Shown: in pieces, positions 44,870-48,118 of the stretch
Layout: each line of letters starts with the position of its first letter
Position numbering within the stretch: position 1 is the first letter of the stretch
NCBI GenBank assembly: GCA_902535745.1
Contig: CACAUR010000001.1
Span: forward strand, 1 to 64,000
DNA: 64,000 nucleotides
Origin: an uncultured Pelagibacteraceae bacterium
GTDB lineage: Bacteria > Pseudomonadota > Alphaproteobacteria > Pelagibacterales > Pelagibacteraceae
Reading direction: 5' to 3'
Notes under the pieces: model-generated
The model's database searches: none
What the model saw: only the letters and a program-made list of their open reading frames with translations
Told to the model about the DNA's origin: nothing
Program-made: the position numbers and the translations under genes

Positions 44870-44888
44870 ATAATAATACTTAACTTAT

Positions 44889-44917
44889 TTATTGACTTTT
44901 TGAACCTCTATTATAGT
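44889..44917 (+). promoter_or_regulatory. promoter for ffh operon
   Basis: TATAGT at 44912-44917 is a good -10. TTATTG (44889-44894) is 17 bases upstream; the better hexamer TTGACT (44892-44897) overlaps it but gives only a 14-base spacer. Transcription would begin near 44924, giving an untranslated leader of about 100 bases before ffh. Confidence 0.5.
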
Positions 44918-44924
44918 TTCTCAC

Positions 44925-45026
44925 AACTTCCGCAAAAACAGCATTTTGCGGTGTCTTTGGAAACAAAGAGATCGACACCAGTCAGCGAGGGTTCGCCCAC
45001 TGGTGCGATTGCTGCTGGAAGAAATT
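44925..45026 (+). promoter_or_regulatory. structured 5' leader of ffh
   Basis: The 5' leader is rich in complementary segments. A perfect 8-bp hairpin (44930-44937 / 44944-44951) has a six-base loop ACAGCA. A 5-bp CTTTG/CAAAG hairpin (44955-44959/44964-44968) carries a GAAA tetraloop. CACCAGT (44976-44982) pairs with ACTGGTG (44999-45005), with an inner GCGA/TCGC helix (44985-44988/44993-44996). Loop CAGCA (44939-44943) complements TGCTG (45013-45017), and CTTCC (44927-44931) complements GGAAG (45017-45021), the apparent ffh Shine-Dalgarno. I cannot assign it to a known riboswitch class; it lacks the conserved 4.5S core. Confidence 0.6.
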
Positions 45027-46385
45027 ATGTTTGAAAATTTGACAAATAAATTCGAGGGAATACTCGATACATTTAAAAAGGCGCCATCACTTAATGAAAA
45101 ACAGGTTGATGAGGGTCTTAAGCTTATTAGACAAGCTTTACTAGAGGCAGATGTATCGCTCGAGGTAGTAAAAGATTTTGTAACAAAAGTTAAACCAAAA
45201 TTATTAGGAAAAGAAATAATAAGATCCACAGCTCCAGGACAAATGGTTGTTAAAATTGTTCACGATGAGCTTGTTTCATTTTTAGGTGATAGCAATCAAG
45301 AAATTAATTTAAAGTCCAATCCACCGGTAACAATAATGATGGTTGGTTTACAAGGTTCAGGAAAAACAACCACAACTGCAAAACTCTCAAAATTTTTAGA
45401 AAAAAATAATAAGAAAAAAATTATGATGGTAAGTTTAGATATTTATAGACCAGCTGCTCAGGAACAACTAAAAATTTTGGGTGATCAAAATAATATCCAA
45501 ACCTTGCCAGTGATAAAAGATCAAATTCCAGCTGACATTTGCAGAAGAGCCTTATCTGCAGCTAATTTAAATGGTTCTGATGTAATCATTTTTGATACCG
45601 CGGGAAGAACGCAAATAAATCTACAGATGATGTCCGAGATAAAACAAATCGAAGAAGTAATAAAACCAACAGAGACTATACTTGTTGCGGACTCATTAAC
45701 TGGACAAGTAGCCGCGAGTGTTGCAAAAGAATTTTCCAATACGGTAAAGGTTACCGGAATAATACTAACTCGAGCTGACGGTGATGGTAGAGGTGGAGCT
45801 GCATTAAGCATGAAACATATTGCCAATGTTCCAATTAAATTTTTAGGTATTGGAGAAAAAATAGAAAATTTTGAAAGTTTTCATCCCGATAGAATTGCCA
45901 ATAGAATTTTAGGAATGGGGGATATCGTATCTCTCGTTGAAAAAGCAGCAGACGAAATCGACGAGGAAAAACTCAAAGAAACTGAAGAGAGTTTAAGGAA
46001 AGGTCAGTTTTCTTTAGAAGATTATCTTTCTCAATTAAAACAAATGAAAAAAATGGGAGGACTAGAGGGTGTGATGTCTTTTTTACCTGGAGTTTCAAAA
46101 ATAAAATCCCAAATGGACCAAGCTGGTGTTGACGAAAAAATAATTACACAAAATGAAGCGGTAATACTTTCAATGACTAAAAAAGAAAGAGAAAATCCAA
46201 AAATTATCGATGGTTCAAGAAAAAAAAGAATTGCTAATGGCTCTGGAACAGATATTGCCACTATCAATAAATTGTTAAAACAATTTAAAATGATGTCTGA
46301 CATGATGAAAAAGATGTCAAAAGGAAACACAAAAGGCTTAACGGAAAAAGGAATTCCACCTGAGCTATTCAATCAACTTAAATAA
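45027..46385 (+). CDS. ffh: signal recognition particle protein Ffh
   Basis: The 452-residue SRP GTPase that binds signal peptides and 4.5S RNA. The order is N domain, G domain (GLQGSGKTTTTAKLSKF near 105, DIYRPAAQEQLK, DTAGRTQINL, TRADGDGRGGAAL, FLGIGEKIENFESFHPDRIA) and M domain with the methionine-rich MKKMGGLEGVMSFLPG and IANGSGTDIATINKLLKQF. I start at the ATG at 45027 (MFENLTNKFEGIL), with GGAAG just upstream. A frame running in from 44946 is a continuation into the leader. It leads the operon ffh-rpsP-trmD-rplS. Confidence 0.96.
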   Translation: MFENLTNKFEGILDTFKKAPSLNEKQVDEGLKLIRQALLEADVSLEVVKDFVTKVKPKLLGKEIIRSTAPGQMVVKIVHDELVSFLGDSNQEINLKSNPPVTIMMVGLQGSGKTTTTAKLSKFLEKNNKKKIMMVSLDIYRPAAQEQLKILGDQNNIQTLPVIKDQIPADICRRALSAANLNGSDVIIFDTAGRTQINLQMMSEIKQIEEVIKPTETILVADSLTGQVAASVAKEFSNTVKVTGIILTRADGDGRGGAALSMKHIANVPIKFLGIGEKIENFESFHPDRIANRILGMGDIVSLVEKAADEIDEEKLKETEESLRKGQFSLEDYLSQLKQMKKMGGLEGVMSFLPGVSKIKSQMDQAGVDEKIITQNEAVILSMTKKERENPKIIDGSRKKRIANGSGTDIATINKLLKQFKMMSDMMKKMSKGNTKGLTEKGIPPELFNQLK

Positions 46386-46398
46386 AAAGGAGAAATAA

Positions 46399-46878
46399 AT
46401 GTTAAAGTTAAGATTATCAATGGGAGGAACAAAAAAGAGACCAGTTTATAAAATCGTGGTTGCAGATAGCAGATTCCCTAGAGATGGAAGATTTATCGAA
46501 AAATTAGGTTTTTTCAATCCTCTACTTCCTAAAGAAAAAAAAGAAAGAGTTGGACTACAGTCAGAAAGAATAAAGTATTGGCTGAGTCAAGGAGCAAAGC
46601 CAACAACTAGAGTTGCTCGATTACTTGGAGAAAATAATTTAATGGAAATGCCTAAACCAGGAAATAATCCAAATAAAGCTATTCCAAAAAAAGATAGAAA
46701 AAAAGATGCTTCTGAAGCACCAAAAGAAGAAAAGAAAGCAGAGGCACCAAAAGAAGAAAAGAAAGCTGAAGCACCAAAAGAAGAAAAGAAAGCAGAGGCA
46801 CCTAAGGAAGAGAAAAAAGCTGAAGCACCAAAAGAAGAAAAGAAAGCAGAGGCACCTAAGGAGGAGAAGAAAAAATAA
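46399..46878 (+). CDS. rpsP: 30S ribosomal protein S16 with repetitive C-terminal tail
   Basis: Residues 1 to about 85 are ordinary S16: [61 protein letters not shown]. The protein is 159 residues; bacterial S16 is usually 80-90 but alphaproteobacteria often carry longer tails. Here residues 106-159 are six copies of a nine-residue unit EAPKEEKKA, highly charged and presumably disordered. A Shine-Dalgarno AAAGGAG sits before the start. It lies between ffh and trmD in the usual order. Confidence 0.96.
46714..46875 (+). repeat. six 27-base tandem repeats in rpsP 3' end
   Basis: Six direct 27-base units encode EAPKEEKKA (the last ends KKK). Units 1, 3 and 5 (46714-46740, 46768-46794, 46822-46848) are identical at the DNA level, while units 2, 4 and 6 begin GAG and differ at several third positions. 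This alternation shows that growth happened by 54-base steps or by conversion between alternating units. The array is likely length-variable between strains. Confidence 0.95.
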
Positions 46879-46880
46879 TT

Positions 46881-47567
46881 ATGTTTAAAGCAAAAATTTT
46901 TACTTTGTATCCTGAATATTTTCCAGGACCTTTCGATATAGGTATTTGTAAAAAAGCTTTTGAAAAAAAACTTTGGGATTTAAAACTTATAAACATAAGG
47001 GATTATGCAGACGATAAACACAAAACTGTTGATGATACCCCATATGGCGGTGGCGTAGGTATGTTAATGAGACCAGATGTAGTAGCAAAATCTTTAGATT
47101 CAAATCTCGAAGAAAAAGAAACAGTTTACTATTTAACACCTAAAGGGAAAATTTTTAATCAAAATATTGCACAGGATATTGTTAAAAAAAACAAAGTAAA
47201 TATTTTATGCGGGCACTTCGAGGGAGTTGATCAACGAGTTCTAGACTCTAGGAACGTTGAAGAGATAAGTATAGGAGACTTTATACTTTCAGGAGGAGAG
47301 ATGGCTACTTTTATTGTTTTAGACACAGTTTTAAGATTGGTTCCTGGAGTATTAGGAAACCTTAATTCTACAAAAGATGAAAGTTTTGAAAATGGACTTT
47401 TGGAGTATCCACAATATACTAAACCTCAAATATGGGAGAAATTAAGTGTTCCAGACATTCTTTTATCTGGAGATCATAATAAAATTAAAAGCTGGCGTTT
47501 ATCACAATCTGAGGCTATAACACGGCACCGAAGGCCAGATTTATGGCAAAAATATAAGAAGGACTAA
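46881..47567 (+). CDS. trmD: tRNA (guanine-N1-)-methyltransferase
   Basis: TrmD methylates G37 of tRNAs using SAM and prevents frameshifting. The 228-residue SPOUT enzyme shows [75 protein letters not shown] for SAM trefoil-knot binding and the C-terminal [24 protein letters not shown]. It follows rpsP after two bases. The RimM gene often found between S16 and TrmD is missing here. Confidence 0.96.
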
Positions 47568-47569
47568 AA

Positions 47570-48118
47570 TTGCAAAATTTAAACATGAAAAATATAGAAG
47601 ACATAAATAAAGCAAACGTTAAAAAAATTTCAGCTGAAAAAAAACTTCCAGAATTTTTTCCAGGAGATATCATAAAAGTTGGTGTAAAAATTACTGAAGG
47701 AAAAAGAGATAGGATTCAGTATTTTGAAGGTGTTTGTATAGCAAAGAAAAATAGAGACTTAAATTCATCCTTTACAGTTAGAAAAATTTCTTTCGGAGAA
47801 GGTGTTGAAAGAACTTTTGCTCTTTATAGTCCGATAGTTGATACAATAAAAGTTATTAGATCAGGTAAGGTAAGAAGAGCTAAATTATACTACTTAAGAG
47901 AGAGAACAGGAAAATCAGCTAGAATAGCTGAGAAGATTAAAAAGAAAATAGGTATTGATGTTGAGGCAAAACCTGAAGAAGTAACAGAAGAGAACGTGTT
48001 AAAAGCTACAGAACAAAAGAATATTGAGGAAAAAGCTGAAACAAAAGTCGCTGAGACACCCAAAAAACTTGAAGAGAAAAAAGAAGATAGTAAGCTTTCA
48101 CCCGAATTAAAAAAATAA
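47570..48118 (+). CDS. rplS: 50S ribosomal protein L19 with charged C-terminal extension
   Basis: The L19 core is evident: [62 protein letters not shown] and [21 protein letters not shown]. The 182-residue length exceeds the usual 115-130 through a Glu/Lys-rich tail of about 55 residues (after [16 protein letters not shown]). The TTG at 47570 is preferred because AAGAAGGA precedes it at a proper distance; an ATG at 47585 (MKNIEDINK) is the alternative. It ends the ffh-rpsP-trmD-rplS run. Confidence 0.95.

Follow-up and report, generated by a model that had tools for sequence, protein, structure and literature searches.

The ffh RNA motif (RF01793) in the SAR11 order as a possible leader of the rpsP-trmD-rplS operon

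The leader and operon at the ffh locus

The window analyzed here (the whole stretch of 64,000 nucleotides) carries an operon of the order ffh-rpsP-trmD-rplS, preceded by a structured leader; the coordinates of all features are collected in Table 1. Three hairpins, referred to here as P1, P2, and P3, follow a likely promoter that sits just 5' of P1. The ATG start codon of ffh (45027 to 45029) is located 21 bases past P3, and trmD follows rpsP with no gene in between.

Table 1. Coordinates of leader and operon features in the window
Feature	Positions	Strand	Description
Likely promoter	44892-44919	+	TTGACT (44892-44897), 16-base spacer, TAGTTT (44914-44919); letters checked; putative
Hairpin P1	44930-44951	+	CCGCAAAA-ACAGCA-TTTTGCGG; 8 bp, loop ACAGCA
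Hairpin P2	44949-44974	+	GAAA loop; base CGGU/AUCG with one G-G mismatch
Hairpin P3	44976-45005	+	7-bp and 4-bp helices separated by a CA/CC internal loop; core of RF01793
Tail with UGCUGG (ffh ribosome-binding region)	45006-45026	+	Pairing with P1 region possible in the SAR11 order
ffh	45027-46385	+	First gene of the operon here; ORF and tblastn
rpsP (ribosomal protein S16)	46399-46878	+	Proposed true partner of the leader; ORF
trmD	46881-47567	+	ORF
rplS (ribosomal protein L19)	47570-48118	+	ORF

The helices named in the original prediction are all present: the 8-bp hairpin with loop ACAGCA (P1), the GAAA-tetraloop hairpin (P2), the pairs of which are conserved and the core of which reads CTTTG-GAAA-CAAAG at 44955 to 44968, and the 7-bp helix CACCAGT/ACTGGTG (44976 to 44982 with 44999 to 45005) with its inner pairs GCGA/TCGC (44985 to 44988 with 44993 to 44996), which together form P3. 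Bases 44950 and 44951 belong both to P1 and to the base of P2, a 2-base overlap. The sequence GGTGTC is found at 44950 to 44955, GACACC at 44974 to 44979, and TGCTGGAAG at 45013 to 45021. The region from 44925 to 45040 has a folding energy of -38.2 kcal/mol, compared to -27.0 ± 3.3 kcal/mol for 200 dinucleotide shuffles (z, -3.4).

The proposal of a credible -10 box stood in part. The site is plausible by eye, and a TTGAC together with a TA-rich box was also seen by eye just upstream in the printed leaders of the SAR11 order and of family f51 (described below); a consensus promoter scan of 44870 to 45030, on the other hand, gave no promoter-like site. Two further signals were set aside as chance: a terminator-like score of P1, because the T-run after P1 falls within P2, and a second place in the genome resembling 45030 to 45062, because the stretch that contains it (L002) is without the leader.

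An Rfam scan and a covariance analysis had been named as checks in the original prediction. In the former, 44961 to 45013 matched the family RF01793 ("ffh") with 58.3 bits (cutoff of 35; E value of 1.6e-8; model positions 1 to 52 of 52), and no other family reached its cutoff on the leader. P3 is a member of this known, catalogued RNA family, and the leader hairpin is therefore not a new object. The ffh motif was published by Meyer et al. in 2009 (PMC2704228), whose account treats a role in regulating ffh as possible and mentions detection of the motif transcript in metatranscriptomic small-RNA analyses. A literature search for "ffh motif" found nothing beyond that work, and a search for RF01793 found only a survey of small RNAs (sRNAs) in Mesorhizobium huakuii (PMC5596092). 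A table in the latter places an RF01793-labeled sRNA on a plasmid, away from the chromosomal ffh, and a copy away from the operon is therefore possible.

The window leader resembles RF01793 in spanning the full model length, in its place before ffh, and in forming an internal-loop hairpin with a covarying stem (11 of 11 pairs). It differs in that the RF01793 consensus pairs P3 only; P2 is additional, as are P1 and the tail pairing in the SAR11 order. Moreover, whereas Meyer et al. linked the motif to ffh, it is also found 5' of rpsP in family f51, which has no detectable signal recognition particle (SRP).

Distribution and pairing conservation

RF01793 was detected in 50 of 61 genomes comprising the window's own genome and its relatives (11 without a match), in 268 of 297 genomes of the SAR11 order (29 without a match), and, at an E value of ≤0.001, in 106 of 385 genomes of the class, representing 69 of 276 genera. 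The score exceeded the RF01793 cutoff in 81 class genomes. No match at this E value was obtained in the other 279, so the operon lacks a recognizable copy of the RNA in many lineages. In each of the three surveys, 0 of 14 control genomes gave a match. The 179 matched loci derive from 175 genomes, as 4 genomes of f51 were fetched twice. Every locus was found via the RF01793 model, and the pairing counts that follow therefore lean towards the structure of the model.

Pairing was assessed in an alignment of 57 rows (A1), consisting of the window and 56 loci chosen from 104 distinct clusters. All 11 pairs of P3 hold in 57 of 57 sequences (627 of 627 cells), and 9 of these pairs have two-sided changes; the covariance check of ffh leaders thus finds covarying pairs, and the claim of a structured leader that is both conserved and covarying is supported. 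When P3 and the base of P2 are taken together, 99.6% of cells pair, compared to 29 to 44% with partners slid, and the covariation score was reached by 0 of 500 shuffles. By one covariation measure, that of further pair types (22), the observed value was reached by 125 of 500 shuffles. RNAalifold predicts the same 11 P3 pairs unprompted; P2, which varies in length, is not among the pairs that it predicts. Across all matched loci, 178 of 179 keep 11 of 11 P3 pairs in their best placement, and the remaining one (L145) keeps 10. P3 and the base of P2 are shown by these comparisons to be under strong pairing constraint. An extension of P3 by AUCG/CGAU was rejected, as its four steps pair in only 36, 29, 32, and 50 of the 57 sequences.

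Within the base of P2, GGU pairs with AUC (44950 to 44952 with 44971 to 44973) in 168 of 171 cells of A1, and the G-U step is nearly constant. In the upper part of P2, letters change and pairing stays, both between SAR11 clades and, in a shorter form, in f51; in some other alphaproteobacteria, the same search gave no clear P2. When placed for best fit, P1 has 7 or 8 of 8 pairs in 57 of 58 distinct leaders of the SAR11 order, and compensatory changes occur (for instance, CCAC/GTGG in place of CCGC/GCGG). The P1 of f51 has no sequence relation to that of SAR11. A UUGG or UGCUGG tail follows P3 in many rows of A1.

The alternative pairings of the original prediction, which had been read as the layout of an RNA switch, fared less well across the SAR11 order. 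The pairing of GGUGUC with GACACC, proposed to compete with the outer helix of P3, is present in the window and complete in 36 of 58 leaders of the order; it is broken in the other 22, so it is kept less strictly than P2 and P3, and we rejected it as a conserved competitor. The loop CAGCA had been proposed to pair with TGCTG near the ffh start, and the upstream CTTCC with GGAAG. Among the same 58 leaders, 20 have both CAGC and GCTG, 17 have GCTG only, and 21 have neither, and TTCC and GGAA occur together in just 6; neither is kept as a fixed pair, and both were dropped as such. In the window itself, the minimum-energy fold opens P1, and the 5' strand and loop of P1 pair with UGCUGGAAG through CUUCCG/UGGAAG and CAGCA/UGCUG.

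A less sequence-specific comparison used the 24 bases after P3, which in this window reach the ffh start codon. The complementarity of this tail to the P1 region, given as own minus shuffled energy, is -2.63 ± 0.40 kcal/mol across 60 distinct leaders of the SAR11 order, and the next best of 12 other downstream segments reaches -1.14 kcal/mol (13 segments were compared, with neighboring segments overlapping). Tail complementarity is weak in other alphaproteobacteria (exceeding that of shuffled tails by 0.85 ± 0.30 kcal/mol) and was not seen in f51 (+0.20 ± 0.61 kcal/mol), where segments further on reach -2.22 kcal/mol. A permutation test gave a z of -4.2 for the SAR11 tail, which is inflated by relatedness, as other SAR11 segments reach +2.9; in other alphaproteobacteria, a far segment gave -2.6 versus -2.5 for the tail. 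We therefore relied on the comparison of segments and claim the pairing for the SAR11 order alone, for which a long-range interaction between the P1 5' strand and the start region is plausible. The switch-like layout accordingly fits the complementarity within this order; start-codon masking as a general mechanism is not supported. With starts taken from tblastn, the start codon lies 21 to 42 bases after P3 in the SAR11 order, 37 to 44 in f51, and 17 to 292 elsewhere; simple occlusion of the start site is therefore not a shared mechanism.

The RNA in family f51 and the proposed feedback by SRP

Family f51 corresponds to genomes named PS1 clade, OCS116 cluster, alpha proteobacterium MED-G09, and the like; of these names, the first two are classified under Alphaproteobacteria incertae sedis. 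RF01793 was matched in 14 of 18 f51 genomes and not in the remaining 4. In all 14 motif-bearing genomes, rpsP is directly next, with no ffh. For seven of the 14 matches (in G706, G592, G716, G718, G711, G668, and G497), the contig breaks off within 600 bases. Among 16 named pattern matches, 13 have rpsP adjoining the pattern and no ffh; the matches L194, L195, and L202, which lack all of the genes tested, were dropped as chance.

PF00448, the SRP GTPase domain shared by Ffh and FtsY, scored over its cutoff in 0 of 18 f51 genomes and in 14 of 14 controls; one f51 genome gave a subthreshold match of 20.5 bits over 41 positions. SRP RNA (RF00169) was likewise detected in 0 of 18 f51 genomes. The RF00169 model matches only 11 of 14 controls and scores the SRP RNA of the window's own genome below its cutoff, so the absence of SRP RNA taken alone is weaker evidence. 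A query with the SAR11 Ffh protein, run without a positive control of its own, gave no match in 4 of 4 f51 genomes. The Ffh M domain was detected in 346 of 385 class genomes; the f51 genome G373 is one of those lacking a match, and the list of positives does not contain G497, G592, or G668. As a control, SecY was found in 14 of 18 f51 genomes, including 6 of 6 near-complete ones. Gene order points the same way for ftsY: this gene adjoins dapF in SAR11 and follows dapF in a locus of another family (L231) at a spacing close to the length of mtaB, whereas two f51 genera have dapF and an mtaB-like gene, then a thioredoxin-like gene and aconitase, and no ftsY (among ORFs of at least 110 amino acids, with gene names from reading of the translations). 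The whole SRP system (Ffh, FtsY, and SRP RNA) has apparently been lost in f51 (loci L120, L170 to L183, L247, and L248), with SecY kept. SRP has been described as essential in general, with only a few exceptions (PMC8299109), which would make such a loss a notable finding in its own right. Literature searches for the PS1 clade with the signal recognition particle and for OCS116 with ffh found nothing. Across the class, 18 of 314 near-complete genomes, f51 members included, are without an Ffh M domain match; some of those outside f51 may carry a divergent or overlooked Ffh instead of having lost it.

Within f51, P3 has undergone paired changes from A-U to G-C at 44977/45004 and from C-G to U-A at 44979/45002 (6 rows, window numbering). 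Judged from the alignment, these differences between genera suggest selection on P3 after the loss of SRP. The loss likely occurred before the f51 genera parted, and if so, P3 stayed under selection afterwards. Retention of P3 in this family without detectable SRP speaks against Ffh or 4.5S RNA as necessary ligands there.

This bears directly on the role assigned to the leader in the original prediction, namely, autoregulation of SRP synthesis, in which free Ffh (or a shortage of 4.5S RNA) would bind the leader and tune ffh translation. Such feedback would account for the position of ffh, which directly follows the motif in 159 of 179 matched loci (in the others, the neighbor is rpsP in 18 loci, from 14 genomes, or the contig ends, in 2), agrees with the regulation of ffh considered by Meyer et al. 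(PMC2704228), and could draw on the complementarity of the tail before the ffh start to the P1 region in the SAR11 order. An RNA of this kind would be expected only where Ffh is present, however, and f51 retains it, with paired changes, in the absence of detectable Ffh, FtsY, and SRP RNA. We therefore judge SRP feedback improbable. The family, with SRP apparently lost, serves as a natural experiment that separates regulation by SRP from regulation of the downstream operon, which synteny alone could not do.

We also dismissed the possibility that the leader is a disguised SRP RNA: RF00169 has no match at the leader, and the 4.5S SRP RNA, which shares with the leader the biological context of Ffh, has its own gene elsewhere in the genome. 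The SAR11 SRP RNA (G000:C5:84114-84212, L033) scores 38.0 bits, below the cutoff of 40, and displays a GAAA loop by eye.

Probable assignment of the leader to the rpsP operon

Among 40 long loci, drawn from the 106 class matches, rpsP and trmD are downstream on the same strand in all 40, and rplS is downstream and codirectional in 38. In the two exceptions, rplS is absent within the 13 kb fetched (L206) or is located ∼6 kb past trmD on the opposite strand (L214). S16 is thus the ribosomal protein that is always downstream, and the structured RNA stands consistently upstream of a ribosomal protein operon, as do known leaders of this type. In Alphaproteobacteria, ffh is simply the usual first gene of the rpsP operon. 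As the RNA is kept before rpsP in a family without detectable SRP, it probably controls the ribosomal protein operon. We consider it quite probable that the element is part of the rpsP operon and does not serve SRP feedback. The explanation that best covers the data as a whole, to which we assign a probability of roughly 0.5, is that the RNA acts as a leader at the 5' end of the rpsP-trmD-rplS operon and responds to excess S16. For the identity of the ligand taken by itself, S16 stands slightly below even odds.

In this proposed mechanism, excess S16 would bind P2 and P3 and lower expression of the operon, the tightly packed genes of which would be translated in a coupled manner. In the SAR11 order, binding could choose between a state in which P1 is formed and the start region is free and a state in which the 5' strand of P1 pairs with the start region and masks it. 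Outside this order, the output of binding would have to differ, because the start codon lies at such different distances from P3. Two observations weigh against parts of this account. First, ffh lies between the leader and rpsP in most species, and in family f24 ffh and rpsP are further separated by acetyltransferase-like and other genes, which share their strand in the clear cases. Second, the lack of P1-tail pairing in f51 and its weakness in other alphaproteobacteria argue against the SAR11 switch as the common mechanism.

A parallel exists in Flavobacteria, for which a structured RNA before rpsP has been described with S16 as its proposed ligand (PMC7247131). These bacteria belong to a different phylum, and the two leaders are set side by side here by description only; the term "ffh" is absent from the main text of that paper. 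According to a 2024 review (PMC10931766), no information exists on the regulation of the trmD operon (rpsP, rimM, trmD, and rplS), and our literature search found no proposal of an rpsP operon or S16 leader for Alphaproteobacteria. Similarity to an rRNA binding site, which is common in ribosomal protein leaders and not required, was not found for P3 against 16S rRNA. A P3-like pattern had no match in the SAR11 16S rRNA of locus L246, and the one match in L245 (position 203 of the turned sequence) is short, dissimilar, and in the flank before the 16S gene. With no convincing look-alike, rRNA mimicry by P3 is unsupported.

Other products of the same operon were considered as ligands in place of S16. 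The linkage of trmD to the RNA is as tight as that of rpsP, so TrmD is a possible ligand, and an L19 leader is known in Firmicutes. In addition, the ligands of multigene ribosomal protein leaders in Escherichia coli and Bacillus subtilis are, according to the same study of Flavobacteria (PMC7247131), mostly not the product of the first gene. For L19, the two loci with rplS out of the row count against this alternative; for RimM, rpsP and trmD are too close together in the SAR11 window to accommodate another gene, so RimM lies outside this operon here; and for TrmD, no tRNA-like anticodon loop was seen by eye. Overall, sensing of TrmD, RimM, or L19 appears unlikely.

A generic element at the 5' end, acting in mRNA stabilization, in directing RNase cleavage, or as the source of an sRNA from the 5' untranslated region and having no dedicated operon ligand, would agree with the transcript reported in metatranscriptomic small-RNA analyses (PMC2704228), with the RF01793-labeled plasmid sRNA of M. 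huakuii (PMC5596092), and with the very variable distance from P3 to the start codon. We nevertheless regard such an element as a doubtful explanation. The constant letters of the stem and of the CA/CC internal loop exceed the needs of a plain stabilizing hairpin, and the tie to one operon is strict, with ffh or rpsP next in 177 of 179 loci and the other 2 at a contig edge. The same 177 loci, all of which precede a single operon, do not display the pattern of a metabolite riboswitch, in which different genes of one pathway would be found downstream.

Returning to the S16-responsive leader, its fullest form can be put forward tentatively: the name "ffh" of RF01793 would be a misnomer for an Alphaproteobacteria-wide leader of the rpsP-trmD-rplS operon that senses S16, has survived the loss of SRP in the PS1 clade, and in SAR11 operates a switch between P1 and the start region. 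With such a reading, a catalogued RNA whose function was unknown becomes a regulator that can be tested.

As a separate observation on rpsP itself, the S16 protein predicted in the window has a C-terminal tail of KEEKKAEAP-type repeats. In the SAR11 order, many matches (G263:C3, G292:C1, and G175:C18 are examples) are separated from a contig end by ∼1,650 to 1,760 bases, and these contig ends fall about where the S16 repeat tail would be.
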